From assembly GCA_030531435.1 (NCBI GenBank), contig JAUNNN010000002.1:1-64000 (forward strand): a stretch of DNA of 64,000 nucleotides, given 5' to 3'. The stretch's first letter is position 1, and each line of letters starts with the position of its first letter. The notes under the pieces are model-generated. The model made no database searches. It was not told where the DNA came from and saw nothing but the letters and a program-made list of their open reading frames with translations. This DNA is from Lachnospiraceae bacterium (lineage in GTDB: Bacteria; Bacillota; Clostridia; Lachnospirales; Lachnospiraceae). The translations under genes and the position numbers were made by a program. Of the stretch, positions 11,450-64,000 are shown piece after piece.

Positions 11450-13288
11450 TTATTCCACCGTAACTGACTTTGCCAAATTCTTTGGTTTATCAACATCGAT
11501 ACCTTTTGAAACACTAAGGTAATATCCCATAAGCTGCATTGGAACAACAGCAAGAGAAGCCATAAAGTGCTCATCTGTTTTAGGTATATATGTTACATAG
11601 TTTGAATTATCTTCAATATTATAGTGACCATATGTAGTAACAGCTAATAGAACAGCACCTCTTGATTTAACCTCTACCATGTTACTAACTGTCTTCTCAA
11701 ACAAGTCTTCCTGTGTAAGGCATGAAATAACAAGTATTCCATCTTCAATAAGAGCTATAGGACCATGCTTTAATTCACCAGCAGCATATGCTTCAGAATG
11801 GATGTAGCTTATTTCTTTCATCTTAAGAGAACCCTCAAGACAAATTGCATAGTCAATTCCACGGCCTATAAAGAATACATCTTTTGCTGATGAAAATTTA
11901 TTAGCAATCCACTGAATACGCTCTTTATTTTCAATAATCTTCTCTATCTTTGAAGGAAGAGTTAATATCTCATTAATATAATAATTATACTTTTCTTCGT
12001 CTATCTTGCCTTTAACTCTTGCAAACTCTGTTGCAATTGCATATACGGCAATAAGCTGTGCACTATAAGCCTTTGTAGTGGCAACAGATATTTCTGGACC
12101 AGCTAAAGTATAAAATACATTATCTGCTTCTCTGGCTATAGATGATCCAACAACATTTACTATTGCAAGTGTCTTAGCGCCATGTGCCTTAGCTTCACTA
12201 ACAGCCTTCTTTGTATCCTCTGTTTCACCAGACTGGCTAATAAGAATTACGTAATCATCTTCTGAAAGAATAGGTGATCTATATCTAAATTCAGACGCAA
12301 GCTCAACTCTTACAGGGACTCTTACAAGATCTTCAATAACATACTGAGCTACCATACCAACATGATAAGCAGAACCGCATGCAACAATTGTAACTTTTGA
12401 TATATTTTTGATAATATCATCTGTAAGTCCAATTTCAGATAAATCAATCTTTCCATTCTTATAAACAGAATTAAATGTTTCTGTAATTATTCTTGGCTGT
12501 TCATGAATTTCCTTCATCATGAAGTGCTCATAGCCGCCTTTTTCGGCCGCTTCAGCATCCCACTTAATTTCAACAGTATCCTTTGGAACGATATCACCAT
12601 CAAGGTTATAGAAATCAATCTGTCCATCATGCATTCTTGCCATTTCAAGATTGTCTATATAATAAACATTTCTTGTGTGCTTAAGAATTGCAGGAACATC
12701 TGATGCAAGATAACAGTCACCATCTGTTATACCAAGAATAAGAGGAGAATCCTTTCTTGCAACATATATTTCATTTGGATAATCCTTGAACATCACTGCA
12801 ATTGCATATGTACCTCTTACACGTACCATTGTCTTTGCAATAGCATCAATCGGTCCAACTTTATACTTTTTATAGTAGTAATCAACAAGCTTAGTAAGAA
12901 TTTCTGTATCTGTCTGTGAATAGAATTCATAGCCCTTTCTTATAAGCTTATCCTTTAATTCCTGATAGTTTTCAATGATACCATTATGAACAGCAACAAC
13001 ATTCATATCGTCTGATACATGAGGGTGTGCATTAAGCTCTGATGGTTCACCATGTGTCGCCCATCTTGTATGACCGATACCACATTTACCCTTAATATCA
13101 AGACCATTATTTGTTTTCTCAGAAAGATTCTCAAGCTTTCCTTTAGCCTTGATTACTTCTGCTTTCTTTTCACCGTCTCTTACAACGATTCCAGCAGAAT
13201 CATATCCTCTATATTCAAGCTTTGATAATCCTTCTAAAAGGATTGGTGCAGCCTGTTCTCTTCCTACGTATCCAACTATTCCGCACAT
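11450..13288 (-). CDS. glmS: Glutamine-fructose-6-phosphate aminotransferase (isomerizing)
   Basis: 612 residues, normal for GlmS. MCGIVGYVG places the glutaminase nucleophile at Cys2 (residues 1-215), with the YRGYDSAGI, GHTRWATHG and HNGIIENY blocks. Two SIS sugar-isomerase domains follow (about 290-425 and 460-600), with VACGSAYHVG, ISQSGETEDT, EGSLKMKEISYIHSEAYAAGELKHGPIALI and the conserved C-terminal DVDKPKNLAKSVTVE. It makes glucosamine-6-phosphate for UDP-GlcNAc, feeding both peptidoglycan and the surface glycan. Only 17 nt separate it from the upstream glycosyltransferase gene, with an AAGGGAGG site, so there is no room for the glmS ribozyme found before many Firmicute glmS genes. 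Confidence 0.98.
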   Translation of the reverse strand: MCGIVGYVGREQAAPILLEGLSKLEYRGYDSAGIVVRDGEKKAEVIKAKGKLENLSEKTNNGLDIKGKCGIGHTRWATHGEPSELNAHPHVSDDMNVVAVHNGIIENYQELKDKLIRKGYEFYSQTDTEILTKLVDYYYKKYKVGPIDAIAKTMVRVRGTYAIAVMFKDYPNEIYVARKDSPLILGITDGDCYLASDVPAILKHTRNVYYIDNLEMARMHDGQIDFYNLDGDIVPKDTVEIKWDAEAAEKGGYEHFMMKEIHEQPRIITETFNSVYKNGKIDLSEIGLTDDIIKNISKVTIVACGSAYHVGMVAQYVIEDLVRVPVRVELASEFRYRSPILSEDDYVILISQSGETEDTKKAVSEAKAHGAKTLAIVNVVGSSIAREADNVFYTLAGPEISVATTKAYSAQLIAVYAIATEFARVKGKIDEEKYNYYINEILTLPSKIEKIIENKERIQWIANKFSSAKDVFFIGRGIDYAICLEGSLKMKEISYIHSEAYAAGELKHGPIALIEDGILVISCLTQEDLFEKTVSNMVEVKSRGAVLLAVTTYGHYNIEDNSNYVTYIPKTDEHFMASLAVVPMQLMGYYLSVSKGIDVDKPKNLAKSVTVE

Positions 13289-18075: not shown

Positions 18076-19237
18076 TTGATGGTCTAAATTCAAGTAATGC
18101 TGAAATATTTGAAAGATCTAGTGGCTCAACCTCTTCATCTCCTGTGTAATCAAACATTTCTGGGATATATGTTTCCCCATTCTTGTAATCATACAAGCAC
18201 ATTTCTCTTTTATTATTAGTATAAAATGCCACACTTTCCGCCGTCTGCTCACCAAGTAAATCAAGTACAATCTGATTATAATGCCACTCATCTTTCATGT
18301 ACTCTGTGCTGGTCTTTGATAAAACTGTTGTTCCAAGTGCATAGTATCCACTTGTTCTGCAAAGATCTATCTGGGCATTAATTATTTGATCGAAATAATT
18401 TCTAAATGTAAGTGTACGTCCAGGAGTAATAATAAATACTTTATTTAATCCTCCAATGAACATGTTTCTCGTAATGTTTCCAATGTTCTGAACATATTCT
18501 TCACCTGAAACATTATTGGCTCCATCAGATTCTCCCTGAAGCCATACTGCGTAACGCTTTCTAACCTTATATCCATTATTATCAAGCCATCCAATAGCTC
18601 TTGTGTATCGCATAATAAGGTCTGCCTGATATGCATCTGACATCCATTTCTGAGTTGTCGTAGCACCTTCTGATGCTGAAACAGCTACTACAGGTATTCC
18701 AGTTTCTTCATAATACTTACAAATAAATGAAGATACTAAAGAACCTCTCTTTGATCCTGGAAAATCACATATTCCGCCAATGAAGCTCTCATTTTTTCCA
18801 AAAGGCTCCTCAATTGGATATAGCATTGTTGGATCAGATATTGCTCTAAACTCATAGCCCCATCCATCAGGTACTTCTGGTGCATATTCTGGATCTCCAC
18901 CTACGCCAGACATATTTGACTGTCCAAGGAAAATAACAAAATCAACAACAATTTTGCCATCTTCAGTTACAGGAAGGCCTTCCTCATCTTCAGAAATTTC
19001 AACTTCTTCCTCTTCTTCCAGCTCTGGAAGTTCAGAATTTTGTTCTGAAATAATAATTGTAGGCTCCTCTGCTTCCTCTTCAATTTCTTCTTCTGGCTCT
19101 GTTTCTTCGGGCTCTTCAACTATTTCTACTGGATAAACAACCTGCCTAATCTCAGAGCATCCTGCTAAACTAAAAATCATGAGTCCTGAAAGAAAAGATG
19201 TCATTAACTTTTTACATAACAACGAATTACTTCTCAT
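18059..19237 (-). CDS. SGNH lipoprotein, sialate O-acetylesterase-like
   Basis: 392 residues. A lipoprotein signal ends in LAG-Cys27. A very acidic linker (about 40-87, long Glu runs) leads to an SGNH hydrolase of the sialate O-acetylesterase type: the nucleophile is Ser107 in FLGQSNMSG, ASEGATTTQKW and VWLQGESDGANN supply the glycine/asparagine blocks, and Asp316 and His319 in KDEWHYN complete the triad. It is predicted to be anchored outside the membrane, where it could remove O-acetyl groups from the cell's own glycan or a host glycan. It overlaps the GtrA gene by 11 bp and the next GT2 start by about 17-35 bp, so it is embedded in the operon. The substrate is not known. Confidence 0.82.
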   Translation of the reverse strand: MRSNSLLCKKLMTSFLSGLMIFSLAGCSEIRQVVYPVEIVEEPEETEPEEEIEEEAEEPTIIISEQNSELPELEEEEEVEISEDEEGLPVTEDGKIVVDFVIFLGQSNMSGVGGDPEYAPEVPDGWGYEFRAISDPTMLYPIEEPFGKNESFIGGICDFPGSKRGSLVSSFICKYYEETGIPVVAVSASEGATTTQKWMSDAYQADLIMRYTRAIGWLDNNGYKVRKRYAVWLQGESDGANNVSGEEYVQNIGNITRNMFIGGLNKVFIITPGRTLTFRNYFDQIINAQIDLCRTSGYYALGTTVLSKTSTEYMKDEWHYNQIVLDLLGEQTAESVAFYTNNKREMCLYDYKNGETYIPEMFDYTGDEEVEPLDLSNISALLEFRPSNENEN

Positions 19238-19733
19238 CTTTTTTCTCTAAAGTCATCTTACGGCTTATAAAGTTATAAACCATGACAATTGCTGTAGCAA
19301 ATACCTTTGCACATATTTCAATAAATTCACCAACTGACTTAAAGAATGCAACATTAATAGATACAAGCCAGTTATAAATTGCCTCATGAATATTATAAAT
19401 AAAAGCAATATTTCCTGTCAGAGCATCAACATATAACCATAAAAGCAATGTATTAAGTCCCATTCCAATAAGGCTTAATACAAGAAAAATAACAAATTCT
19501 TTCTTCTTGTCGGCATCATCTTTTCTTTCAAAAACAAATGCCATGCTTGCAAGATAATTAAAGATTAATGAAACGGTAAATCCACAAATACCGGCAATAA
19601 GGTATGATTTGTCACCGTGTAGCGTTTTTACAACTATTGTGTATACGGTGAAATCAATTACAAATGCCAAACCTCCAACGACCGCAAATTTCATTATCTG
19701 CTTTAATAATTTATGATTCTTTTTATTTTCCAT
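19227..19733 (-). CDS. GtrA family membrane protein
   Basis: 168 residues with four membrane helices. The first, FAVVGGLAFVIDFTVYTIVV, shows the FxxVGxxxxxxDxxxxxxL pattern of GtrA, and FTVSLIFNYLASMAFVF fits the second helix. GtrA proteins are thought to flip a polyprenyl-phosphate sugar for transfer outside the cell, together with a GtrB synthase and a membrane GT. Here no GtrB is adjacent; GtrB-like candidates are at 52105-53037 and, more weakly, 2164-2874. The neighbours are a GT87-like membrane protein, which could be the external transferase, and the SGNH lipoprotein gene, which it overlaps. Confidence 0.88.
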   Translation of the reverse strand: MENKKNHKLLKQIMKFAVVGGLAFVIDFTVYTIVVKTLHGDKSYLIAGICGFTVSLIFNYLASMAFVFERKDDADKKKEFVIFLVLSLIGMGLNTLLLWLYVDALTGNIAFIYNIHEAIYNWLVSINVAFFKSVGEFIEICAKVFATAIVMVYNFISRKMTLEKKDEK

Positions 19734-30117: not shown

Positions 30118-31122
30118 TTAGAGTACATCTGCGAAATGCACTTTAAGTCTCTTAAATACAAGGGCTCCAACAGCAAACATAAGTAATGTTAAAATCCAGA
30201 AATATGATGTTGAGAAAAATGTTTCCCAAAACCATATTTTGTCGATTAAAGCATTTCTATATCCTTCAACTATATAATTCATAGGATTAAGCTTAAATAA
30301 GAATTTCATCCATGCGTACTGTGGATGTGATTCAAGCATAGAATTTAAATTCCAAAGAATTGGTGTTGCCCATATTCCTACCTGAAGAGCTATCGAAATA
30401 ATCTGTCCAAGGTCCCTAAAAAATACTACTATTGCGCATGTAATATAGCAAAGTCCAAGTACAAAAATAAACATACATGCTGAATAATATATTATCTGCA
30501 ATGTATATAAATCTGGATACATTCCGTAGCATGAATATAAAATCAGTGTGAACAATACGAAAAATACATGTACAAAAAGTGCTGAAATAATTTTAATAAT
30601 TGGAAGAATACTTATCTTGAAAACTACCTTTTTAACAAGATAATTATATTCTAACAGTGCATTTGTTCCACTTGATAGAGCTTCAGAAAAATAGAACCAT
30701 GGAACTATACCTGCAATAAGCCAAAGTACATAAGGTATTTCAAGGTCACCATTAAGTGTTGTTGCTCTTGATGGAATAGCTATTGTAAATACAAACCAAT
30801 ACAGAAGTACTGTAATAATTGGCTGAACAAACGCCCAAATAATACCAAGATATGAACCAGCATATCTTGTCTTAAAATCATTCTTTGCAAGCTTCCATAT
30901 TAGTTCTTTATTTTGGAATAGCTCAATAGGAAGGATTACGATTTTGTCGTATCCAACAAGAAATACAATATATATTGCATTAAGAATTATGCAGGAAATA
31001 ACCTTTTTAATTGTTTCCTGCGTTTGATTATCTAAAGGATTGTGATGAAGAATAATATATAAATCAAGCGCCACCACAAATATTGTTACGATCAATATCG
31101 TCAGTTTCTTTTTATTTTCCAT
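30118..31122 (-). CDS. wzm: Polysaccharide ABC exporter permease
   Basis: About 334 residues from the ATG at 31122; a longer frame starts with TTG at 31137 but lies inside rmlC. Two extra N-terminal helices (about 6-25 and 38-58) precede the ABC-2 permease core of six helices: LAKNDFKTRYAGSYLGIIWAFVQP is the amphipathic entry helix typical of Wzm/TagG/KpsM proteins, followed by WLIAGIVPWFYFSEAL and KLNPMNYIVEGYRNAL. With the adjacent ATPase it would move a finished lipid-linked glycan across the membrane. The first two helices are not part of classical Wzm and are a notable extension. Confidence 0.9.
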   Translation of the reverse strand: MENKKKLTILIVTIFVVALDLYIILHHNPLDNQTQETIKKVISCIILNAIYIVFLVGYDKIVILPIELFQNKELIWKLAKNDFKTRYAGSYLGIIWAFVQPIITVLLYWFVFTIAIPSRATTLNGDLEIPYVLWLIAGIVPWFYFSEALSSGTNALLEYNYLVKKVVFKISILPIIKIISALFVHVFFVLFTLILYSCYGMYPDLYTLQIIYYSACMFIFVLGLCYITCAIVVFFRDLGQIISIALQVGIWATPILWNLNSMLESHPQYAWMKFLFKLNPMNYIVEGYRNALIDKIWFWETFFSTSYFWILTLLMFAVGALVFKRLKVHFADVL

Positions 31123-31666
31123 TATCACGCTCAGCAAGTGTTGGCCACTTAGTATCTTTCTCAGAGAATATTAATTCAATGCCCTCAACTGGCCATTCAA
31201 CACCAACATCAGGGTCATTCCATATAATTCCGCCTTCATCGTTTGGATGATAAAAATCTGTACATTTATATGCAAATTCTGCGTAATCTGAAAGTACTAC
31301 AAATCCATGTGCAAATCCCTTTGGTATAAAGAACTGCTTTTTATTTTCTTCTGATAAACGTACACCAAACCACTTGCCATATGTCTTTGATCCTTCTCTT
31401 AAATCAACGGCAACGTCAAATACTTCTCCTCTTACACATCTAACAAGCTTATCCTGAGGGTAATTGATTTGGAAATGTAATCCTCTAATAACTCCTTTTT
31501 TTGAAGCAGACTGATTATCCTGTACAAAAACCTCAGGTATTCCTGCCTCTTTGAAATCGTTATAGTTATAAACCTCCATGAAGTAACCTCTGTTATCCCC
31601 AAAAACTGTTGGAGTAATAACCTTAAGTCCTTCTATTTCACATGTTTCAACTGTAATTTTTCCCAT
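31112..31666 (-). CDS. rmlC: dTDP-4-dehydrorhamnose 3,5-epimerase
   Basis: 184 residues, typical length. RmlC features: the strand VFGDNRGYFMEVYN, FVQDNQSASKKGVIRGLHFQ with the catalytic-type histidine in RGLHFQ, KLVRCVRGEVFDVAVDLR, and IPKGFAHGFVVLSDYAEFAYKC with the second conserved histidine/tyrosine region. The enzyme epimerises C3 and C5 of dTDP-4-keto-6-deoxyglucose on the way to dTDP-L-rhamnose. An AAAGGA site precedes the start. rmlA and rmlB lie upstream, separated from it by the GH25 gene; no rmlD was found in the window. It overlaps the start of wzm by 11 bp. Confidence 0.95.
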   Translation of the reverse strand: MGKITVETCEIEGLKVITPTVFGDNRGYFMEVYNYNDFKEAGIPEVFVQDNQSASKKGVIRGLHFQINYPQDKLVRCVRGEVFDVAVDLREGSKTYGKWFGVRLSEENKKQFFIPKGFAHGFVVLSDYAEFAYKCTDFYHPNDEGGIIWNDPDVGVEWPVEGIELIFSEKDTKWPTLAERDNGK

Positions 31667-34482: not shown

Positions 34483-35352
34483 TTATAATCCGTTAGCTAC
34501 ATCCGTTAAATACTTACCATATTCTGTCTTAAGTAACGGTTCTGCAAGTTTTAGAAGCTGTTCCTTATTAATGAATCCTCTTCTAAATGCTATTTCCTCA
34601 ATACATGAGATATACATTCCTTGTCTCTTCTGGAATGCTGCAACAAAATCTGCTGCATCAAGTAACATATCGTGGCTACCTGTATCAAGCCAAGCGAATC
34701 CTCTGCCAAGAGTTTCAACATGCAAATCTCCCCTTTCAAGATATGCATTGTTTACTGATGTTATTTCAATCTCACCTCTGGCTGAAGGCTTTACATTCTT
34801 AGCTATTTCAACTACATCATTATCATAGAAATAGAGACCTGGTACCGCATAATTTGACTTTGGATTTGCAGGTTTCTCTTCAATAGAAAGTGCCATTCCA
34901 TTCTCATCAAATTCAACAACACCGTATTCTCTAGGATCTCTTACATAATACCCAAATATTGTTGCTCCTTTTTCTCTTGAAGCTACATCACGAAGTACCT
35001 TTGAAAAGCTCTGTCCGTAAAAGATATTATCTCCAAGAATTAATGCAACTGAATCATTCCCAATAAATTCTTCACCAATAATAAATGCATCTGCAAGGCC
35101 TCTTGGATACTCCTGAACAGCATATGAGAAGGAAAGTCCTAACTGCTCACCAGTTCCAAATAGTTCTTTAAACATTGGCAAATCTCTTGGTGTAGAAATA
35201 ATTAATATTTCTCTAATGCCAGCAAGCATAAGAATTGACAATGGATAGTAAATCATTGGCTTATCATATACTGGCATCATCTGTTTTGAAACTGCCTTAG
35301 TAAGTGGATATAGTCTTGTGCCAGAACCTCCGGCAAGAATAATACCTTTCAT
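34483..35352 (-). CDS. rmlA: Glucose-1-phosphate thymidylyltransferase
   Basis: 289 residues, normal for RmlA. The N-terminal [25 protein letters not shown] is the nucleotide-binding signature; [28 protein letters not shown] and [10 protein letters not shown] are further conserved blocks, and [14 protein letters not shown] and [13 protein letters not shown] follow. It makes dTDP-glucose from glucose-1-phosphate and dTTP, the entry step for dTDP-rhamnose and for the other dTDP-deoxysugars suggested at 53039-56906. The start shares a base with the rmlB stop (TAATG), so the two are coupled. Confidence 0.97.
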
Positions 35353-36428
35353 TATTTGTACATCTCCTGATAATATTTCTGGTAATCTCCGCTTGTAACG
35401 TTATTCATCCATTCTGTATTTTCAAAGTACCACTTAATCGTAAGCTTGATACCTTCTGCAAACATTGTTTCAGGCTCCCATCCAATTTCTGACTTAATCT
35501 TATCTGGAGCGATTGCATAACGTCTGTCATGTCCCTTACGATCTTCAACATATGTAATAAGATCATAATTAATATGAGCCTTTCTTTCATCTGTATCTGG
35601 AAGCATTTCTGCTATTGTATCAATAATTATTTTAACGATTTCGATGTTCTGCTTTTCGTTATGACCGCCTACATTATACTTTTCTCCAAGGCGACCCTTC
35701 TCGCAAGCCATATCAATTGCTTTTGCATGGTCCATAACATAAAGCCAGTCTCTAACATTCTTTCCATCACCATATACTGGGAGTTTTTTGCCACTTAAAA
35801 TGTTGTTAATGATAAGTGGAATAAGCTTTTCAGGGAACTGATATGGTCCATAGTTATTTGAACAGTTTGTAATAACTGCTGGGAAGTGGTATGTATCAAC
35901 ATAAGATTTTACAAGAAAATCTGATGAAGCCTTACTTGCTGAATATGGTGAATGTGGATCATATGGAGTTGTCTCATAGAAGTAATCATTTCCATCAGGA
36001 AGTGAACCATATACCTCGTCTGTTGAAACATGTAAAAATCTCTTTCCATCCTTAAATGTTCCATCGCCATTGTCCCATGCAGCCTTAGCGCAGTTAAGCA
36101 TTACAAGAGTACCAAGAACATTTGTCTGAACAAACACTTCTGGATTCTTGATACTTCTATCAACATGACTTTCAGCAGCGAAATGAACTACTCTGTCGAT
36201 GTCATTTTCAGCAAATATTTTAGAAATTGCATCCTTGTCACAAATATCCGCTTTTACAAATGTATAATTATCTCTATTTTCAACATCCTTTAAGTTTTCA
36301 AGATTACCAGCATATGTTAATAAATCAACGTTAATAATCTTAATATCATTGTCATATTTATTAAACATGTAATGGATATAATTTGAGCCTATAAATCCTG
36401 CCCCACCTGTAACTAGATATGTTTTCAT
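35352..36428 (-). CDS. rmlB: dTDP-glucose 4,6-dehydratase
   Basis: 358 residues from the ATG at 36428. The frame stays open to 36470, but those 14 residues are unlike the family, and an AGAAAGGG site precedes the inner start. Features: NAD-binding [15 protein letters not shown] at the N-terminus, [21 protein letters not shown] with the catalytic TDE, and [14 protein letters not shown] with the Tyr-x3-Lys pair. It converts dTDP-glucose to dTDP-4-keto-6-deoxyglucose, the branch point for rhamnose, 3-amino and 2-deoxy sugars. It is the first gene of the long downstream run, with its own promoter at 36533-36561 and an inverted repeat in the leader. Confidence 0.97.
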
Positions 36429-36452
36429 TAAAAGTACCCTTTCTGTTTGTTC

Positions 36453-36470
36453 GTGACATATACATGTCAC
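36453..36470. promoter_or_regulatory. Inverted repeat in the rmlB leader, possible operator
   Basis: GTGACAT-ATAC-ATGTCAC is a perfect 7-bp inverted repeat with a 4-bp centre. It starts about 55 nt after the predicted transcription start and ends about 25 nt before the rmlB start codon. It could be a regulator binding site or form a small hairpin in the mRNA; no T-run follows, so it is not a standard terminator. Confidence 0.45.
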
Positions 36471-50664: not shown

Positions 50665-52121
50665 TTGTTTTCTTTCTTAATCATTCCCTTAATCATGCTT
50701 ACAAGAGAACTTATAGTTTTATAGTTAATTAGTAAATGAACAACAAATAATATGACACCAACTAGAGCACTCAAAATCTGATTATCCGTATATGTAGCAT
50801 AACCTGCATAGCCTATGTAAATAATCATTGAAAGGATAAACGTCTTTAATTTGTAATCAACTGGATAGCACTTCTTTGCAAAATATGTACCTATTGCAAA
50901 ATACACAATGTATGTAATACCTGTTGCTAAAGCTGCTCCAACACCCTTATACCTTGGAACAAGTATAGCATTTCCAATAAGATTACAAATAATTGCTGCA
51001 AATGATGCATAATTAAAATACTTAATTTTCTTTACAAATTTAACACCCTGACCTGTCATTTCAAATAAAATACTAAGTACTGGCATTAAAGTAAGAAATG
51101 GAATTATTCTAATAGCAGCTCTGTATTTTTCTCCAAGAAAAAGTACAATTATTCCCCTACAAATTGTTAGCCCAAACGCAAGACACATACACAAAAACTG
51201 CGTTTTTAAAAATATATCTGCAAAGAATTCTTTACATTTTTCTTCTGACTCATTCTCATATTTTTCCATTGCAATTGGAGACCAGAATGCTACAAATGTA
51301 ATCTTTACTGTTAGTATAATTGTCATAATCTGCATTGCAGCAGAATATACACCAGTCTCTGAAAAATCATTAAAAAATCTTATTGACCATTTATCCATAC
51401 TTGATAACAGCCACTCCATAAGAAGCATTGGAATAAATGGAATTGAATATTTTAACAATTCGCTCTCACTGACACCATTCTCATCAAGCTTAAATACATT
51501 CACCTTTTCATGTCGATTTATGAAAACAAATCGTATCATAAGTCCAAATGTAACAATAGCAAGAGGCAATGTTAGCGCATACAATACAACTCTAAAATCA
51601 TCTCCAAGTATCATTACAAAAATGACAATAAACGAAATATATAAAACTTTTGATAATATGTTCAGATTAGAATATAATTTACCTCTTTGATCCATTCTTA
51701 TATTTAAAAACAAAAATCTTTCAAATACAGAGGTAATAACATATCCTACTACGAGCAGAGTTATATCAAGTGAACTTCTCTCAAATAAAAGATAATTAAA
51801 GCTATTTGAGAAGATAAAATAGACTGAAGCCAGGCACAATATAAGAACTAATGACGGATAAAGACACTGATAAAACAACTTCTTTTTGCTAACACCGTCT
51901 TTATAGAAATATCTTATATATCCCTGGTCAAGACCCAGAATAGCACATATGTAAATAATGGAAACAACGGACTGAAACATAGCTGTTCTGCCGTATTCGT
52001 CCGTTGACATTAATCTTGTTATTAAAGGAGTTGAAATAAACCCTAGTAACAACACTATGAAATTGCCATAAAAGTAATCTAAGAAGCTTTTAAATACTCC
52101 TGATTTATTTTTTTCTGACAT
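50661..52121 (-). CDS. Oligosaccharide flippase, Wzx-like MOP family
   Basis: 486 residues, about thirteen or fourteen membrane helices. N-terminal SFLDYFYGNFIVLLLGFISTPLITRLMSTDEYGRTAMFQSVVSI is the typical Wzx/polysaccharide transporter start, with the LxxxEYGxxAxF pattern. Later, KYSIPFIPMLLMEWLLSSMDKWSI and SETGVYSAAMQIMTI fit the family's second half. It would flip undecaprenyl-diphosphate-linked repeats to the outer face. No Wzy polymerase was recognised for certain; one of the neighbouring polytopic proteins may fill that role. It overlaps genes on both sides by 17 and 4 bp. Confidence 0.88.
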   Translation of the reverse strand: MSEKNKSGVFKSFLDYFYGNFIVLLLGFISTPLITRLMSTDEYGRTAMFQSVVSIIYICAILGLDQGYIRYFYKDGVSKKKLFYQCLYPSLVLILCLASVYFIFSNSFNYLLFERSSLDITLLVVGYVITSVFERFLFLNIRMDQRGKLYSNLNILSKVLYISFIVIFVMILGDDFRVVLYALTLPLAIVTFGLMIRFVFINRHEKVNVFKLDENGVSESELLKYSIPFIPMLLMEWLLSSMDKWSIRFFNDFSETGVYSAAMQIMTIILTVKITFVAFWSPIAMEKYENESEEKCKEFFADIFLKTQFLCMCLAFGLTICRGIIVLFLGEKYRAAIRIIPFLTLMPVLSILFEMTGQGVKFVKKIKYFNYASFAAIICNLIGNAILVPRYKGVGAALATGITYIVYFAIGTYFAKKCYPVDYKLKTFILSMIIYIGYAGYATYTDNQILSALVGVILFVVHLLINYKTISSLVSMIKGMIKKENK

Positions 52122-53037
52122 CGTTTACTTCATCCACAATAAATACTGGTCTGTTTCTGCTTGCGTCAAGTGTTCTCCATAAATACTCTCCTAATACTCC
52201 AAGCATTGAAAGTATAAGTCCCGTTGAAAATAACACTAAACACATAAGCGTTGTCCAACCTTGTACGGGTACACCCATTACAAAGTATTCTATTACTGTT
52301 TCAATTATCCAAATAAAGGCTATCAATGCAAAAATAAATCCCACTGATGTCATAAATTTAATTGGAAAATATGAGAAACTCATCATTGAATCCATAGCAA
52401 GCTTAATTCTCTTTGCAAGAGTCCAACTACTTCCACCATCTTCTCTTTCTTTTCTATGATATGGAACTTCAGCTGTTTTAAAACCAGCCCATAATAGCTG
52501 TAACTCAAGAGAAGAATTTTTCTCATCAAGAAGTTCTAATACTTGAATCACTTTTCTATCCATTAAAAAGCAGTCAAATCCGCCCTCTGGCATATTTTTA
52601 TTTACTGCACCACGCATAATTTTATAATATGTGTTCGCAAAAAGCTTTTTAAGGAATGGATCATCTCTTTTCGCTCTTGTAGCAATAACTACTTTATTGC
52701 CCTCCTTCCACTTATCATACATTTCTACAATAAGTTCAGGTTCTTCAGCTAAATCAGCCTGCTTTGTAACTGCGCAGTCACCTGTACACTCTGATAATCC
52801 TGCAAGAATTGCCGCATGCTCACCAAAGTTTCTTGATAATTTTACACACTTTACATTTTCATCCATATCGCGAATTTGGTTCATGATTTCCCATGATTTA
52901 TCTTCTGATCCATCATTCACCATTACAATCTCGTATTCACCAATTGTATCAAGAATTCTATCCTTCATTTCCTGATAAAGTGGCATAAGTGTATCTTCAT
53001 TGTAGTATACAGGGATAATAATAGAGATTTTACTCAT
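52105..53037 (-). CDS. GtrB/DPM1-like membrane glycosyltransferase family 2
   Basis: 310 residues. GT-A domain: KISIIIPVYYNEDTLMPLY, YEIVMVNDGSEDKSWEIM, LSRNFGEHAAILAGLS, and a QADLAEEPELI block in place of the usual DADLQDPPE; the first acidic residue is changed to Gln in the standard alignment. FDCFLMDRKV and KREREDGGSSW(T) follow, then two C-terminal membrane helices (about 230-255 and 265-285). GtrB-type enzymes make a polyprenyl-phosphate sugar on the inner face for later transfer outside. The LAKRIKLAMDSMMSFS segment is the usual membrane-edge motif. It lies between the flippase and sugar-modifying genes. Confidence 0.88.
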   Translation of the reverse strand: MSKISIIIPVYYNEDTLMPLYQEMKDRILDTIGEYEIVMVNDGSEDKSWEIMNQIRDMDENVKCVKLSRNFGEHAAILAGLSECTGDCAVTKQADLAEEPELIVEMYDKWKEGNKVVIATRAKRDDPFLKKLFANTYYKIMRGAVNKNMPEGGFDCFLMDRKVIQVLELLDEKNSSLELQLLWAGFKTAEVPYHRKEREDGGSSWTLAKRIKLAMDSMMSFSYFPIKFMTSVGFIFALIAFIWIIETVIEYFVMGVPVQGWTTLMCLVLFSTGLILSMLGVLGEYLWRTLDASRNRPVFIVDEVNDVRKK

Positions 53038-53038
53038 C

Positions 53039-53449
53039 CTATTCTCCTTTTTTTAATGCATTCATATACTCATCATAATCTTCGTATGTTTCATTTCCTG
53101 GCTCATATGGACGGTCACAGATAGCCATCATAACGCAATCAGGAGTGAAATCATACATTGATCTCCATACCATTTCATCAATATAAAGACCTTTTGTATC
53201 ATCATCCATAACAATATCTTCTTGTACCTCGCCATTATCAACATGGACCTTACAACTTCCAGCAATTGGTACAAGAATTAGCTTTGTTTTCTTTGTTGCA
53301 TGATTTCCACGACTTGCGCCTGCAATTACCTCTTTAACAAAGAAAATTCTTTTTATTTCAAATGGAACTCTGTTATTTACTTCTGTTACAAGTAAGCTTC
53401 CATCTTCCTCTACTACTTTATTAAGCTTAATGAAATTCCAGCTTCTCAT
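53039..53449 (-). CDS. dTDP-4-keto-6-deoxyhexose 3,4-ketoisomerase, FdtA/QdtA type
   Basis: 136 residues from the ATG at 53449, with a GGAGGG site 5 nt before it; the open frame reaches 53476. A cupin fold is indicated: VTEVNNRVPFEIKRIFFVKEV, ASRGNHATKKTKLILVPIAGSCKVHVDNGE, TKGLYIDEMVWRSMYDFTPDCVMMAICDRPYE. The R-G-x-H-A-x-K core is the active-site signature of the WxcM-C/FdtA group. These enzymes move the keto group from C4 to C3 of dTDP-4-keto-6-deoxyglucose. The aminotransferase gene 10 nt upstream is the expected partner for making a 3-amino-3,6-dideoxyhexose. Whether the product is galacto- or gluco-configured cannot be read here. Confidence 0.87.
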   Translation of the reverse strand: MRSWNFIKLNKVVEEDGSLLVTEVNNRVPFEIKRIFFVKEVIAGASRGNHATKKTKLILVPIAGSCKVHVDNGEVQEDIVMDDDTKGLYIDEMVWRSMYDFTPDCVMMAICDRPYEPGNETYEDYDEYMNALKKGE

Positions 53450-53459
53450 ATTCCCTCCA

Positions 53460-54557
53460 TTAGCCCTTATATGCATTTACTGCTTCAATAACTTTTGTGA
53501 TTTCAGCATCATCCATGTAGTCCATCATAGGAAGATTTACTATCGTATCACAAATATTCTCTGTAATAGGGAAATCTCCTCTCTTATATCCAAGATATTC
53601 CATACATGGCTGAAGATATGGTGGAACCTTCCAAGCAATATCTGTTCCAACATCTTTTCCTTTAAGGAATTCAATAAATCCATCCTGATTATCAACTCTT
53701 ACTACAAACTGATACCATGTATGTCTGCAGCCTTCAGCTGTTTCTGGCAATCTAACAAGCGGATTATTGATTTCTGCAATATATCTGTTTGCAATATGAG
53801 CTCTGTTTGCAAGTAACTCTTCCATATGTGAAAGCTTAACTCTTAATATACCTGCCTGAAGCTCATCAAGTCTTGCATTAAATCCAACTTCAATATTGTG
53901 GTATCTTCTGTCACTTCCATAATTGCGAAGAGTTTTTACTTTTTTAATCAATTCCTCATCCTTTGATGCAACTCCACCACCGTCTCCAAATCCACCAAGA
54001 TTCTTTGTTGGATAGAAACTATAAAATCCTGCAACACCAAATAATCCAGTGTTTGTACCCTTATAATCTGCAAAATGAGACTGAGCACAGTCTTCAAATA
54101 ACATAAGATTATGTTTATTACAGAAGTCCACAATTGGTTCCATTCTTGTAGCCTGTCCATAAAGATGAGTAACAAGAACTGCCTTTGTTTTATCTGTCAT
54201 AGCTTTTTCGATATTATTTACATCAAGCTGATAATATTCATCTGGCTCAACAAAAATTGGAGTAGCACCACACTGCATAACACCAAGCATTGTAGCAATG
54301 TATCCATTTGCCTGAACAATTACTTCATCACCCTCTTTAATGCCTGCTGCCATAAGTCCTAACATAATTGCATCAAGTCCGTTATCTACACCTGCTGCAT
54401 AAACATTCTCACCAAGAGCATCAGCAAATTCTTTTTCAAAATTTTCAACTTCCTTACCGAGTACATACCAGCCACTTCTTAATACATCAATGACCTTTTT
54501 CTCATACTCATCCTGATAAAGCTTAAATCCTCTTACTAATTCATTAATTGGTACCAT
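53460..54557 (-). CDS. DegT/DnrJ/EryC1-family sugar aminotransferase
   Basis: 365 residues. PLP enzyme with the internal aldimine Lys185 in FYPTKNLGGFGDGG, Asp156 in LFEDCAQSHFADYKG to hold the pyridine nitrogen, and AAGVDNGLDAIMLGL at the phosphate-binding helix. TLRNYGSDRRYHNIEVGFNARLDELQAGIL is a typical family block. It moves an amino group from glutamate to a keto sugar nucleotide. Beside an FdtA-type isomerase, C3 of dTDP-3-keto-6-deoxyhexose is the likely site (FdtB/QdtB type). The neighbouring 2,3-dehydratase also opens the chance of a 2,3,6-trideoxy-3-amino sugar. Confidence 0.92.
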   Translation of the reverse strand: MVPINELVRGFKLYQDEYEKKVIDVLRSGWYVLGKEVENFEKEFADALGENVYAAGVDNGLDAIMLGLMAAGIKEGDEVIVQANGYIATMLGVMQCGATPIFVEPDEYYQLDVNNIEKAMTDKTKAVLVTHLYGQATRMEPIVDFCNKHNLMLFEDCAQSHFADYKGTNTGLFGVAGFYSFYPTKNLGGFGDGGGVASKDEELIKKVKTLRNYGSDRRYHNIEVGFNARLDELQAGILRVKLSHMEELLANRAHIANRYIAEINNPLVRLPETAEGCRHTWYQFVVRVDNQDGFIEFLKGKDVGTDIAWKVPPYLQPCMEYLGYKRGDFPITENICDTIVNLPMMDYMDDAEITKVIEAVNAYKG

Positions 54558-54566
54558 TTTTCTCTC

Positions 54567-55532
54567 CTATTCTGCTAAATCAAAAGCATATGCAATCTGT
54601 TCAATCTGTCTAAGCAATTCGTCATATGCATTATTTCTCATTTCTTCATTTTTAATACAGTTCATAAAATACTCTGTCTGTAATAAAAACTGATCTGCAC
54701 TATCTGCTTCATATATGGTTTCGCCATCATTTGTTGTAAGAATTACCTGTGGTTTTAAACCATCAGGTGCTGTATAAAATCTAGGTGCTTTTATCATTCC
54801 TTTTTGTCCCCAGATTTCTAGCTCACATTTATAAAAATTATCCATTCCAAATGAAGCCTGTAATGTATGTCCCATAGCATTTTCCATAGTCAGAGTACCA
54901 TACATATCAACTTCAAAACCATCAATATAGTTTAGGCTTGCTGTAACAACCTCTGATGACTCACCAAGTAATTCAAAACCAGCCTTTATCGTATAGCCGC
55001 CTGCGTCAAGTAAACCTCCGCCTCCAAGAGCTTTCTGATGACGAATATCATCAGGCTGACGTTTTGGAAAACCGAATGCAGTTCTGACATTTCTAATGTC
55101 CCCAATTGCGTCATCTGAAATAAGCTTCTTTATAAGTGTCATCTGCGGATGATGTATAAATCCATAATTTTCAATTATAGCAAGATTCTTTTCTTTTGCT
55201 ATATTTACAAGATCTTCTGTATCTTCTACATCTATTGTAGAAGGTTTTTCAACAAATACATGTTTACCTGCAAGAAGCGCTTTCTTCGCCCACTCATAAT
55301 GAAGCGATGGTGGAAGAGGAATATAAACTGCCTCTATTTCTTCACATTCTAAAAGCTTGTCATAACCGACAATAGCTTTACCACCAAACTCTTCTGCTAG
55401 AGCCCTTCCCGCTTCTAATCTCTCTTCAGATGATACAGCAAGCATTAAAAATTCAGCATTTTCACATTTATTAAGTGCTGGTAAAAATCTTCTTTTTGCA
55501 ATATCAGCTGCTCCAAGTACACCAAATTTCAT
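54567..55532 (-). CDS. Gfo/Idh/MocA oxidoreductase, sugar 3-ketoreductase candidate
   Basis: 321 residues. The NAD(P)-binding N-terminus is MKFGVLGAADIAKRRFLPAL; KHVFVEKPSTIDVEDTEDL contains the family EKP motif with catalytic-type lysine. LGGGGLLDAGGYTIKAGFELLG holds the G-G-G-x-L-x-D-x-G-x-Y block with the active-site Asp/Tyr positions. Members such as KijD10 reduce C3 of dTDP-3,4-diketo-2,6-dideoxyhexose, the product of 2,3-dehydratases. The gene directly follows the 2,3-dehydratase gene, making that role likely. A standing alternative is a general sugar dehydrogenase. Confidence 0.88.
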   Translation of the reverse strand: MKFGVLGAADIAKRRFLPALNKCENAEFLMLAVSSEERLEAGRALAEEFGGKAIVGYDKLLECEEIEAVYIPLPPSLHYEWAKKALLAGKHVFVEKPSTIDVEDTEDLVNIAKEKNLAIIENYGFIHHPQMTLIKKLISDDAIGDIRNVRTAFGFPKRQPDDIRHQKALGGGGLLDAGGYTIKAGFELLGESSEVVTASLNYIDGFEVDMYGTLTMENAMGHTLQASFGMDNFYKCELEIWGQKGMIKAPRFYTAPDGLKPQVILTTNDGETIYEADSADQFLLQTEYFMNCIKNEEMRNNAYDELLRQIEQIAYAFDLAE

Positions 55533-55544
55533 TTTTCATTCCTT

Positions 55545-56906
55545 TTATATTTCTAGTAGTGATAATAAGTTTCTCAACTGAATATTCAAACAGTTATTAA
55601 CCTGAGTTAAAATATTAAGTGTTCCATAATCACTTAGTATATATCCATCAGGCAAATCCTTTAATTCGTTTTTATCAACAGATATTATAACATTACGATT
55701 TTCTTCCTGATAAAATCTTCCACCCTCTTCTGAAAGAATCGTATCAACTATTATATCTTTTTTCGCCAGAAGCTTCTCATTAAATAGTTTTTCAACCACG
55801 TCAGGCTCTTCTTTAGAATAAGGCTCTCTTTGAACTGTAGGACCTATTTCAATATTATCAAAACATCCAATTTCTGCCCTTGGTTTAACCAAAAACTTAA
55901 GCACTCCATCATCATCACAACAAATCAGTCCAAATAGTCCCTTTCCTGTTGCAGCAAATAATGGCTGTCGCCAGCGAGTAACTTCTCGTCCTTCAATCGC
56001 GATATCACAGAATATAACATTAAATGGATAATCTTCATCACACATAAAGACATTATCCTTCATATGCCAATTATCAAGACTAAATAATGGCACGGTTTCT
56101 GTCCTTCGTCCTGCTAACATCTTATAATTATTTATTTCATTATAAAGACTGACAATTGTTTTTCTGTTCATGTTCCATGCAGTCTTATAGAAATAATCCT
56201 TGTCTTTAAATGGAACATCTCCCTCTTGTCCCATAAGGACATAGGGTATACATGAAAGAACCGTTCTTGTATCCATATTCACCACATTATCGTGATGCAT
56301 AAGTTCCTTTATCTGCTCTAGTGTAAGCCATCTATGGCTATTCTTTTCTTCTAATATTTCCTCTGTTTTAATAATAACGTTTCTGTTTCTCTTTTTTAGA
56401 AATCTTGATCCCTGTTCAGACTGAATCTGATCTACAATAATGTCCTCATGTTTCATGTTAAGGAAATACTGTAAAAACTCTGGTTCTCTACCTCCATGAG
56501 CTCTTGTAAAGTTACTTTTTGTAGCCTGAAGTGTCGGTGATAACTGCACAACATTTACATTTCCTGGCTCGATTTTTGCCTGCATTAAATAATGCCATGT
56601 ATCATTTATTTTGCAGCAAATTATTCCAAGAAAACCTATTTCACTCTGATCAATTATAGGCTGTGAAAAAACAAGCTTATCTCCTTCATATTCCTTTGCT
56701 CCATATATCTTAAAAAATGAGCCCTTGGCGTTTCGTATGCATCCACCAATCTCATCATAAAACCATGGATCACACTCATCTAAAGAAATATGAGATATAT
56801 TAACCTCTGTCTTTTTTGAAACAGAGTCAAGCCACTCATACACTTCATCCATTGAGTGCATTGAATATGATTCGTTTTGTTTATTTTCTCTTAAATATTC
56901 AAACAT
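55545..56906 (-). CDS. NDP-hexose 2,3-dehydratase family protein
   Basis: 453 residues built from two related halves (about 1-225 and 226-453). The repeated landmarks are EFLQYFLNMKHEDIIVDQIQ with SEQGSRFLKKRNRNVII in the first, and DIIVDTILSEEGGRFYQEENRNVII in the second; LVFSQPIIDQSEIGFLGIIC matches VTRWRQPLFAATGKGLFGLIC. This tandem layout is that of EvaA/TylX3-type dehydratases, which remove the C2 hydroxyl of dTDP-4-keto-6-deoxyglucose in antibiotic deoxysugar paths. In a glycan locus it would feed a 2,6-dideoxy sugar into the polymer. RmlA and RmlB at 34483-36428 supply the substrate. Confidence 0.9.
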   Translation of the reverse strand: MFEYLRENKQNESYSMHSMDEVYEWLDSVSKKTEVNISHISLDECDPWFYDEIGGCIRNAKGSFFKIYGAKEYEGDKLVFSQPIIDQSEIGFLGIICCKINDTWHYLMQAKIEPGNVNVVQLSPTLQATKSNFTRAHGGREPEFLQYFLNMKHEDIIVDQIQSEQGSRFLKKRNRNVIIKTEEILEEKNSHRWLTLEQIKELMHHDNVVNMDTRTVLSCIPYVLMGQEGDVPFKDKDYFYKTAWNMNRKTIVSLYNEINNYKMLAGRRTETVPLFSLDNWHMKDNVFMCDEDYPFNVIFCDIAIEGREVTRWRQPLFAATGKGLFGLICCDDDGVLKFLVKPRAEIGCFDNIEIGPTVQREPYSKEEPDVVEKLFNEKLLAKKDIIVDTILSEEGGRFYQEENRNVIISVDKNELKDLPDGYILSDYGTLNILTQVNNCLNIQLRNLLSLLEI

Positions 56907-61369: not shown

Positions 61370-62749
61370 CTACATTCCTTCGTAAACTTCCTGAATATAC
61401 TCAAGGAAGCGGTAATTTCTATCATAAAGTCGTGCACGTCGCATGCACATTTCCGGTGTATACATTATTCCTCTCTGAGAAAGAATCTTGTCGAATGCTG
61501 CAATTACACCTTGAATACTATTTCTCTCAACAGCAATACCACATGTGTCATCAATACTCTCTGCACTGCCACCTGCCTTAAATGTAACAACAGGAGTACC
61601 ACAGGCAAGAGCCTCAATGTTAGTTGTAGGGAAAGTATCCTCAAGTGTTAAATTCACATATATGTCTGCCATTGAATATAATGCTGCCAGTTCTTCCGTA
61701 CTGTCAGTCCTTGCAAGTCCAATTATTGACTCTGGGAGCTCATTTAGCTGAGCATCATTTAATCCAAGAAGAACTATTACATATCTGTCACTTATTGATT
61801 TTGCCAGTGTCTCAAACTGGAGAAGTCCTTTTCTTTCTCTCCATGGATTAGCTACTCCAAGAAGAACAAGCTTATCTCTTACGTTAAGTGAATTTTTTAG
61901 CTTAAATATAAGATTTGAATTAGTAACATCTTCTGCCACAGGGCTAAACTCTTCAAGGTTAATTCCAGTAGGCACAACGACAGTGTGGTACTCTTTCATA
62001 AATGACTGAGATACTCTTTCTCTAAGCCACTCAGATGGAGTAACAAGAGTCATATTTTCAATGCCTGTGAATAATTCCTTCTTTTTCTGATAGTTAAATG
62101 TAGAATTATCTGCAGCAATTGACTTTGGGTATTCATTAAGCTGTTCACACTTAAAGCACCCTGTCTGCCACTTCATACATCCAATATACTCAAAATGAGA
62201 GCAATGGCCTGTAAATGTCCAACAATCATGAAGCGTCCATATGACCCTTCTTCCGGACTGTTTTATGTATTTAAACAAAATCTCAATATTAAGATAATAT
62301 CCATGTACATTGTGAAGATGTATTATATCTGGATCAAAATCTTCAATAACATCAATAAATTCTCTTGTGGCACGCTTAGAATAAAATCCATGCTTATCAT
62401 TAATTCTGCTAAGTCCACCATGTACATATACTGAGAAATCATCACCAATTCTGTATGAATTACGATTTCCTGGCGCTTCTCCTCTGCCGTATGCAATAAG
62501 ACACTGATAACCATTATCCGTTAGAGTATCATAAAGACCTGTAACAAGTCTTCCAACACTTCCTGTACCAGCAACAGTATTTACTAACAGAACCTTTCTA
62601 TTTTCAAGCCTATTCATAGATGACATTACTGCACTTTGTGATGCTGTAATAAGTGGCTCTTCTGGTTCTAAACTGCCAAGCCCTATATAATTATTTTCAG
62701 TATTGTGATCAAGCGAAACCGCCATCACATCAAGTTCATCTCTCATCAT
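61370..62749 (-). CDS. Glycosyltransferase family 4
   Basis: About 459 residues from the ATG at 62749; TTG 62755 and other inner starts are possible because the first ~50 residues are poorly conserved. GT-B fold: KVLLVNTVAGTGSVGRLVTGLYDTL starts the acceptor domain; PDIIHLHNVHGYYLNIEILFKYI is typical of WcaL/PelF-like GT4. The donor domain has LLGVANPWRERKGLLQFETLAKS and LEDTFPTTNIEALACGTPVVTFKAGGSAE, with a T-N-I-E-A motif where many GT4 show E-x7-E. The cysteines in FEYIGCMKWQTGCFKCEQL may bind a metal. It overlaps the upstream gene by about 14 bp. Confidence 0.87.
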   Translation of the reverse strand: MMRDELDVMAVSLDHNTENNYIGLGSLEPEEPLITASQSAVMSSMNRLENRKVLLVNTVAGTGSVGRLVTGLYDTLTDNGYQCLIAYGRGEAPGNRNSYRIGDDFSVYVHGGLSRINDKHGFYSKRATREFIDVIEDFDPDIIHLHNVHGYYLNIEILFKYIKQSGRRVIWTLHDCWTFTGHCSHFEYIGCMKWQTGCFKCEQLNEYPKSIAADNSTFNYQKKKELFTGIENMTLVTPSEWLRERVSQSFMKEYHTVVVPTGINLEEFSPVAEDVTNSNLIFKLKNSLNVRDKLVLLGVANPWRERKGLLQFETLAKSISDRYVIVLLGLNDAQLNELPESIIGLARTDSTEELAALYSMADIYVNLTLEDTFPTTNIEALACGTPVVTFKAGGSAESIDDTCGIAVERNSIQGVIAAFDKILSQRGIMYTPEMCMRRARLYDRNYRFLEYIQEVYEGM

Positions 62750-64000
62750 TATCAAAATCGTCTAAAATCAAACGAATAACTCTATTCTGTCCCTTTGAGA
62801 AGTCTTTCTGAAGCTGAAGCTTTCTCATTTCCATTCGTACCTTTGGTGTACTAATAAGCCACTCAATAGTAGAAATAATTGTTGTATCATCAGTTTCAGT
62901 ACCAATTCCAAGGTTAATAAATCCGTTCTGAATACCTGCAAATACATGCTCTGCTTCCCTTGGATTCTGAGCTAAAACTACAGATGGAACACCCATGCTT
63001 GCAAGCTCATAAACTGTTCTTCCCTGAGAAGTAACTGCAAGATCCATCGAACTCATATATGCACTTACTCTCTTTGCGTCATTATGTATGAAAATATTGT
63101 TTTCTTCATCAGTAACAATCTTATCTTTATGTCTGTATGCAAATCCAATAAGGAAATGGAAATTAATATCTTTATGATCTGCATGAAGTTTTTTACAAAT
63201 TGAGTACAAACGTCCTGTTAAATCTGAAGGGTCAGCCCCGCCAAAAATAATCATCACATTTTCTACAGTCTCTGAAAATTCCTTTGGATTCTCTTCAAGG
63301 AACTCATCCCTTATGCAGAAATATTTTGATCCATAGTATTCGTTGCTAAGTCTTTCACCCTTTTCATAAAGAGCATTAATTACTGCATCTGCATATTTTG
63401 CCCCTGGTCCTACATCTTCAAAGTTAACAACTCTTCCAGCATTTCTTGTACATATACTCATATACTCTTCTGTAGTATCAAGTATGTCGTTTACAATGAT
63501 GTCTGGCTTCTCTTTTACAAGAACATCTTCAAACTCTCTTTCATTATCAACTGTTACAAGCTTGAAGTTAGATTCCTTAACCTTATCAATACCGATGTCA
63601 CTTCCAGAATCAAGAACAAATAACAGCTCATGGCCTGTAAGCTTATATGCAAGAGTAAGACATCTGTATACATGTCCCATTCCAATCTGCATCTTACCAA
63701 CAGTTCTGAAAATAATTTTCTTTCTGTTAAGTATATTCTCACAAAGTACCCAATCAGAATATGTATCAATATCAACTGCCTCATCTTCTGATATTTCAAA
63801 GATACTTACATTACTTCCGATACGGCCATCTTCCTTAACACACTCACGCTTTGTAATTAAAAATCCACCTGTTTCAAGGTAATTTGCTGGAAGCTCCTGA
63901 GAATTTAATCTTTTCTCATAATTCTTTACAATCTTTCCATCCTTTACGCCCCATGAAAGATGAGGCTTATTCATTGCTGAAATAACTGTATCAAATTCAG
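62736..64000 (-). CDS. CMP-sugar synthetase fused to PseG-like glycosyltransferase, 5' end beyond window
   Basis: The open frame runs through the window edge: sequence before the ATG at 63974 continues in frame as EFDTVISA, so the gene starts upstream. Residues up to about 80 of the visible part are the C-terminal half of a CMP-sialic acid synthetase (ETGGFLITKRECVKEDGRIGSNVSIFEISEDEAVDIDT). The rest is PseG-like: RTVGKMQIGMGHVYRCLTLAYKL, MIIFGGADPSDLTGRL and SQGRTVYELASMGVPSVVLAQNPREAEH. PseG releases UDP from an activated 2,4-diacetamido sugar in pseudaminic acid synthesis. The fusion links two steps of a nonulosonic acid path, but its exact sugar is unknown. Confidence 0.88.
   Translation of the reverse strand, partial: EFDTVISAMNKPHLSWGVKDGKIVKNYEKRLNSQELPANYLETGGFLITKRECVKEDGRIGSNVSIFEISEDEAVDIDTYSDWVLCENILNRKKIIFRTVGKMQIGMGHVYRCLTLAYKLTGHELLFVLDSGSDIGIDKVKESNFKLVTVDNEREFEDVLVKEKPDIIVNDILDTTEEYMSICTRNAGRVVNFEDVGPGAKYADAVINALYEKGERLSNEYYGSKYFCIRDEFLEENPKEFSETVENVMIIFGGADPSDLTGRLYSICKKLHADHKDINFHFLIGFAYRHKDKIVTDEENNIFIHNDAKRVSAYMSSMDLAVTSQGRTVYELASMGVPSVVLAQNPREAEHVFAGIQNGFINLGIGTETDDTTIISTIEWLISTPKVRMEMRKLQLQKDFSKGQNRVIRLILDDFDNDER

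Follow-up and report, generated by a model that had tools for sequence, protein, structure and literature searches.

A four-gene cassette for a predicted 3-amino-2,3,6-trideoxyhexose in a surface-glycan locus of a Lachnospiraceae bacterium

Which sugar is made by four adjacent genes at positions 53039-56906 of a 64,000-nucleotide stretch of Lachnospiraceae DNA (the window: positions 1 to 64,000 of contig JAUNNN010000002.1, assembly GCA_030531435.1)? The genes encode, in order, a nucleoside diphosphate (NDP)-hexose 2,3-dehydratase, a Gfo/Idh oxidoreductase, a DegT aminotransferase and an FdtA-type isomerase. A reading made earlier from the DNA letters alone (the sequence-only reading) described them as an antibiotic-type deoxysugar cassette and left the product open between a 2,6-dideoxy sugar, a 3-amino sugar and a combination of the two. 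The comparative data favour the combined product. Judged from its genes and their relatives, the cassette is probably a complete dedicated pathway to deoxythymidine diphosphate (dTDP)-3-amino-2,3,6-trideoxy-D-hexose, which would be loaded onto undecaprenyl phosphate for a surface glycan.

The cassette and its proposed pathway

The four open reading frames (ORFs) are intact and co-directional on the minus strand, within 4 kb and in the order that the sequence-only reading had claimed, with matching coordinates and Pfam families. They are separated by 12 nt, 9 nt and then a 17-nt overlap between the aminotransferase and FdtA genes, with 1 nt to the next gene, and they belong to a long run in which the glycan genes all point the same way. 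The enzyme families proposed for all four are borne out by structure matches. The dehydratase (55545..56906; 453 residues) has two Nudix-related repeats, with PF03559 in two tandem stretches (E 3e-121, 402.6 bits; Pfam), and its sole match in the PDB is EvaA (4j7g; E 3e-77); the genome holds no second copy of it. The Gfo/Idh protein (54567..55532; 321 residues; PF01408 and PF22725) is a putative sugar 3-ketoreductase most similar in the PDB to KijD10 (3rbv; E 8e-56). The aminotransferase (53460..54557; 365 residues; PF01041, E 2e-95) is a predicted pyridoxal phosphate (PLP)-dependent sugar 3-aminotransferase of the QdtB/FdtB type, with QdtB as its top PDB match (3frk; E 1.5e-98); it does not reach the cut-off of any 4-aminotransferase model listed from NCBIfam. 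The last protein (53039..53476; 145 residues; PF05523, E 1e-36) is a divergent FdtA/WlaRA-type cupin of the dTDP-sugar 3,4-ketoisomerases, with the motif RGxHAT and with FdtA (2pak) and WlaRA (5tpv) as its top PDB matches. These scores, and the fact that many other genomes hold the same set, exclude chance.

The precursor source named by the sequence-only reading also held. RmlA, the glucose-1-phosphate thymidylyltransferase (34483..35352, minus strand; TIGR01207, 492 bits), and RmlB, the dTDP-glucose 4,6-dehydratase (35352..36470, minus strand; TIGR01181, 476 bits), both exceed their NCBIfam equivalog cut-offs; no other protein in the genome passes the one for RmlB.

In the proposed pathway RmlA and RmlB would supply dTDP-4-keto-6-deoxyglucose, from which the EvaA-type dehydratase would take off the C2 hydroxyl to give a 3,4-diketo-2,6-dideoxy sugar. 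The KijD10-type reductase would then act at C3, so that the 4-ketone stays; the divergent FdtA-type cupin would shift this ketone from C4 to C3, so setting the C4 hydroxyl; and the QdtB-type aminotransferase would aminate C3 to give dTDP-3-amino-2,3,6-trideoxy-D-hexose. A GtrB/ArnC-like transferase would load the sugar onto undecaprenyl phosphate, after which it would be flipped and decorate the surface glycan. The order of the steps and the substrate of each are what we infer from the enzyme families; the D configuration is proposed on the ground that the conserved set lacks a C5 epimerase. A count of ketones bears on the isomerase: the dehydratase makes two and the reductase and aminotransferase use two, so the isomerase is needed only if both of these enzymes act at C3. 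This count, the matching clades of dehydratase, aminotransferase and isomerase, and the lack of a recognised C4 enzyme are the grounds on which the combined product is favoured. A search of the open-access literature, in which chemical names with commas could not be used, turned up no precedent for such a route and no surface glycan bearing such a sugar.

The catalytic residues are conserved. Catalysis by EvaA needs Glu139 and Glu190 of pocket A (PMC8987622). E113 and E164 of the window dehydratase align with them and are invariant in 91 homologues; the enzyme is best read as EvaA-type and is predicted to catalyse the 2,3-dehydration of dTDP-4-keto-6-deoxyglucose. K96 and Y180 of the reductase align with K102 (the lysine of an EKP motif) and Y186 of KijD10 and are invariant in 87 homologues; we take this pair to be functional residues of the Gfo/Idh sugar 3-ketoreductases. 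The PLP lysine of the aminotransferase, K185, is likewise invariant across its homologues.

The isomerase has diverged strongly. Its AlphaFold2 model (predicted local distance difference test score, pLDDT, 91) has FdtA as the top Foldseek match (E 3e-15), and it groups with FdtA, WlaRA and QdtA. Its motif reads HAT where others have HAH or HAN: the first histidine (His49 of FdtA) is invariant and threonine replaces His51. Asparagine stands at the second-histidine position in WlaRA, named in the PDB as a TDP-fucose 3,4-ketoisomerase (5tpv), and in the plain relatives nearest the cassette isomerases; the loss of this histidine therefore preceded the cassette class, and the residue is not a firm criterion for an isomerase. 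We rejected as unjustified the idea that the enzyme is non-functional for want of His51, since WlaRA likewise does without it. The cassette isomerases also have aspartate at a conserved arginine position of FdtA (chain residue 17) and several hydrophobic changes. Tyr17 and Arg97 of QdtA, as against Arg and His in FdtA, presumably set the stereochemistry at C4 (compare the title of PDB entry 4zu7). The window isomerase has Asp and Arg at this pair, which is neither pattern, so the C4 configuration (Fuc- or Qui-type) cannot be predicted from it. These class-specific changes fit an altered substrate without proving it.

Finishing modes among related loci

The comparison drew on 88 distinct loci with this dehydratase, 20 of the window type and 68 others; one of the 20 (L068) starts inside the dehydratase gene and was labelled by similarity alone. 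Finishing enzymes were counted in loci with at least 2.5 kb of flank on both sides (15 window-type and 53 ordinary loci), and the enzyme acting at C4 was sought within 4 kb. In most loci the dehydratase and reductase are followed by an RmlC-type epimerase and/or a short-chain dehydrogenase/reductase (SDR), or by a 4-aminotransferase-like DegT protein. Known actinomycete routes run through the dehydratase, a 3-ketoreductase, an epimerase and a 4-ketoreductase to digitoxose, or through the dehydratase, a 3-ketoreductase and a 4-aminotransferase to vicenisamine (PMC8944477), and by analogy the ordinary loci correspond to these 2,6-dideoxy and vicenisamine-type 4-amino sugar routes.

The window shows a third mode, an FdtA-like isomerase with a QdtB-like aminotransferase. 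An SDR reductase or a 4-aminotransferase, either of which would finish C4, is found in 51/53 ordinary loci and 0/15 window-type loci. FdtA has the opposite distribution (15/15 window-type loci versus 0/53), as does the aminotransferase at 60% identity or above (14/15 versus 0/53; in the exception, L061, it lies ∼6 kb away). The Gfo/Idh gene adjoins the dehydratase in the window, in 14/15 cassette loci and in all 53 others. When all ORFs of the 20 loci were clustered, the dehydratase was found in 20, the aminotransferase in 19, the isomerase in 18, the reductase in 17 and a glycosyltransferase family 2 (GT2) protein in 15. No other family occurs in more than six loci, save antisense shadow ORFs of these genes (judged by coordinates), and this clustering gave no conserved epimerase, C4 reductase or acetyltransferase. 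The RmlC of the window (31112-31666) was accordingly dropped as a part of the cassette: the conserved set has no C5 epimerase, and RmlC with an RmlD on another contig explains rhamnose. Gene order is shuffled: aminotransferase-FdtA-dehydratase-reductase in most loci, dehydratase-aminotransferase-FdtA-reductase in several and dehydratase-reductase-aminotransferase-FdtA in the window.

The trees agree with a class that is inherited together. The dehydratases of the 20 window-type loci form one clade (Shimodaira–Hasegawa-like approximate likelihood-ratio support 100), as do the aminotransferases (18 rows; support 100) and the isomerases (18 rows; support 100/100), and the latter two clades arise beside one group of plain Lachnospiraceae FdtA/FdtB pairs. 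The isomerase stem measures 4.9 changes per column on 140 columns, a length that is likely saturated and shows strong divergence only.

Several observations weigh against this interpretation. With its very long stem, Thr for His51 and Asp for Arg, the isomerase has diverged so strongly that its reaction could have changed. The 15/15 window-type loci without a recognised C4 enzyme were examined with homologues of the C4 enzymes of other loci only. The reductase is less coherent than its partners: window-type reductases do not form one clade, and L072 has no reductase homologue in the whole genome searched, so that a constant linkage of reductase and dehydratase had to be given up. The dehydratase and aminotransferase trees also disagree on the nearest relatives of the window inside the clade. 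Lastly, a macrolide cluster of Streptomyces CL7 holds RmlC together with the four gene types and may make two sugars.

This last case fits an explanation with two branches, in which the dehydratase and reductase would make a 2,6-dideoxy sugar while the isomerase and aminotransferase make a separate 3-amino sugar, Fuc3N or Qui3N. Plain FdtA/aminotransferase pairs without a dehydratase are common (FdtA occurs in 60/299 genomes of the family), and a related GT2 adjoins some of them. However, the 2,6-dideoxy branch would then lack, in every window-type locus counted, the C4 reductase or 4-aminotransferase that nearly all other loci have; the isomerase and aminotransferase form clades of their own tied to one dehydratase clade; and a plain FdtA module is already present elsewhere in the genome. 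We consider two branches unlikely but not negligible. It is quite improbable that the steps follow an EvaB-like order, with amination of the 3,4-diketo sugar at C3 and reduction of C4 by the Gfo/Idh enzyme, the cupin being an epimerase or accessory protein; the product would again be a 3-amino-2,3,6-trideoxyhexose. Actinomycete angolosamine routes do run without an isomerase (PMC9452638; PMC4644662), the cupin is divergent and the window-type reductases fall outside the main reductase clade, but the nearest structures are a 3-ketoreductase, QdtB and 3,4-ketoisomerases, and in ordinary loci the same reductase family is paired with separate C4 enzymes. That a 3-amino-3,6-dideoxyhexose alone is made, with the dehydratase and reductase idle or acting on something else, is hardly credible: the isomerase and aminotransferase would suffice for Fuc3N or Qui3N by established pathways, but the catalytic residues of the dehydratase are invariant, and in three phyla the genes have remained together.

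A dedicated pathway to the 3-amino-2,3,6-trideoxyhexose thus remains our preferred explanation. We also lean towards the wider proposal of a reduce-isomerise-aminate route, with an FdtA-like subfamily specialised for 2-deoxy substrates, borne by a mobile surface-glycan cassette in at least three gut-bacterial phyla.

Two features of the other loci were noted in passing. Eight of them (L025, L036, L104, L108, L113, L129, L133 and L134) combine the dehydratase and 3-ketoreductase with a 4-aminotransferase-like DegT protein; their predicted products, in gut bacteria, are 4-amino-2,4,6-trideoxy sugars of the vicenisamine type. Many loci of the C4-reductase type (L024, L030, L037, L074, L086, L088 and others) have a homologue of Glf (UDP-galactopyranose mutase, identified by eye) next to RmlC/SDR, a hint of 2,6-dideoxy hexofuranoses.

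Spread of the cassette and its surroundings

PF03559 matches occur in 10/299 genomes of the family and in 5/398 genomes drawn from the phylum, and the dehydratase is found in 1/20 other genomes drawn from the genus of the window (G705). A scan of the genome collection gave 581 stretches with dehydratase relatives. The nearest 80 of these, which were examined, come mostly from gut and rumen anaerobes (Lachnospiraceae, Oscillospiraceae, Erysipelotrichaceae, Treponema and other Spirochaetaceae, Gastranaerophilales and one Bacteroides); many are metagenome-assembled genomes, in which an isolated taxon label may stem from wrong binning. The cassette clades themselves span Lachnospiraceae, Erysipelotrichaceae, Spirochaetaceae/Treponema and Gastranaerophilales. 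The label 'antibiotic-type' is apt for the chemistry and fails as a recent borrowing: at ∼36% identity to the actinomycete versions and with a long separating branch, a recent transfer from actinomycetes was rejected. The dehydratase phylogeny that the sequence-only reading had proposed instead gives a large separate lineage, mostly of gut anaerobes, in surface-glycan loci. A phage or virus origin was also rejected, with no dehydratase match in the phage collection and, for a single-protein query, no aminotransferase relative in viral contigs.

In L059 the order aminotransferase-FdtA-dehydratase-reductase-GT2-GtrA forms a self-contained unit outside a glycan locus, adjoining ATP synthase genes. 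The gene set of L065 lies a few kb from groEL, and the housekeeping genes that adjoin or neighbour the cassette in L059, L065 and L072 (ATP synthase, groEL and infB/rbfA, by eye) suggest that it moves as a unit.

In the window the cassette region is a surface-glycan locus. Upstream in the run are three GT4 and one GT2 glycosyltransferases and an initiating sugar transferase (Bac_transf); downstream are the GtrB/ArnC-like GT2, a flippase-like protein (Polysacc_synt), membrane proteins and a UDP-sugar dehydrogenase. A PseG-like protein (by eye) is encoded upstream in the same run at 62736-63974, and a NeuB-like synthase (by eye, L033:1895-2974) and a flippase-like protein lie further upstream, beyond the window; the glycan may hold a nonulosonic acid too.

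The GT2 protein next to the cassette (52105..53037, minus strand; 310 residues) is a probable polyprenyl-phosphate loader, matching GtrB (5ekp; E 1e-56) and ArnC (9bhc; E 1e-35). At 50% identity or above it is found in 8/20 loci with the set versus 0/68 others, and relatives of 60–66% identity adjoin plain FdtA/aminotransferase pairs, which suggests that it recognises 3-amino sugars and would transfer them to undecaprenyl phosphate. Paired small EamA/SMR-like membrane proteins, of ArnE/ArnF-like size, occur in cassette loci (L065:6583-7381; L067:19011-19707) and are possible candidate flippases for the lipid-linked sugar. L067 belongs to Butyrivibrio sp. XPD2006, a carrier of the cassette that is in culture.

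Two other sugar modules were seen. The segment 28826-36470 holds genes for a Wzm/Wzt-type ABC exporter, RmlC, a GH25 protein with a choline-binding repeat, RmlA and RmlB, and is probably a separate unit for an ABC-exported, rhamnose-containing polymer that shares the dTDP-sugar precursor. At a contig end in the same genome (contig C1) are a plain FdtA with the HAN motif, a GNAT acetyltransferase and a GtrB-like GT2 (L168:10313-10771, 10851-11363 and 11404-12354), probably a separate Fuc3NAc or Qui3NAc module and a natural control for the cassette.

Comparison with known systems

Antibiotics are the usual setting of 2-deoxy sugars. Acid readily cleaves the glycosides of these sugars, which means that routine sugar analysis would be prone to destroy them. 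If the proposed pathway is correct, entire classes of 2-deoxy sugars have been overlooked in the surface glycans of common gut and rumen bacteria, and these could serve as receptors recognised by phages or the immune system; the cassette would also offer an isomerase of new specificity and a new route, both of use in making daunosamine/angolosamine-type aminosugars.

In the EvaA–E route to epivancosamine the diketo sugar is aminated and a 4-ketoreductase then acts. The angolosamine routes of angolamycin and kidamycin have a 2,3-dehydratase, a 3-aminotransferase and a 4-ketoreductase, with no 3-ketoreductase or isomerase named (PMC9452638; gene list in PMC4644662). Like these, the cassette is predicted to start with an EvaA-type 2,3-dehydratase acting on dTDP-4-keto-6-deoxyglucose and to yield a 2,6-dideoxy frame aminated at C3; unlike them, it has a 3-ketoreductase and a 3,4-ketoisomerase and no recognised 4-ketoreductase, and it sits in a surface-glycan locus instead of an antibiotic cluster. 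It would reach sugars of the angolosamine class by another route.

The FdtA/FdtB, QdtA/QdtB and WlaRA/WlaRG systems, which make Fuc3N or Qui3N for O-antigens and S-layers, use the same 3,4-ketoisomerase and C3 aminotransferase families, and some relatives share the GT2. The cassette differs from them in its added 2,3-dehydratase and 3-ketoreductase, in an isomerase with HAT and with Asp for Arg, and in having no conserved acetyltransferase. With the vicenisamine (VinE/VinF) and digitoxose routes it shares the core of 2,3-dehydratase and 3-ketoreductase (PMC8944477), but whereas those finish at C4 with a 4-aminotransferase or a 4-ketoreductase, the cassette is predicted to finish at C3 after isomerization. 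Its GT2 matches GtrB and ArnC of the Gtr and Arn systems, and L059 has GtrA too; in contrast to those systems, the window has no GtrA beside the cassette (one lies at 19227-19733), and the sugar would come from a dedicated cassette.

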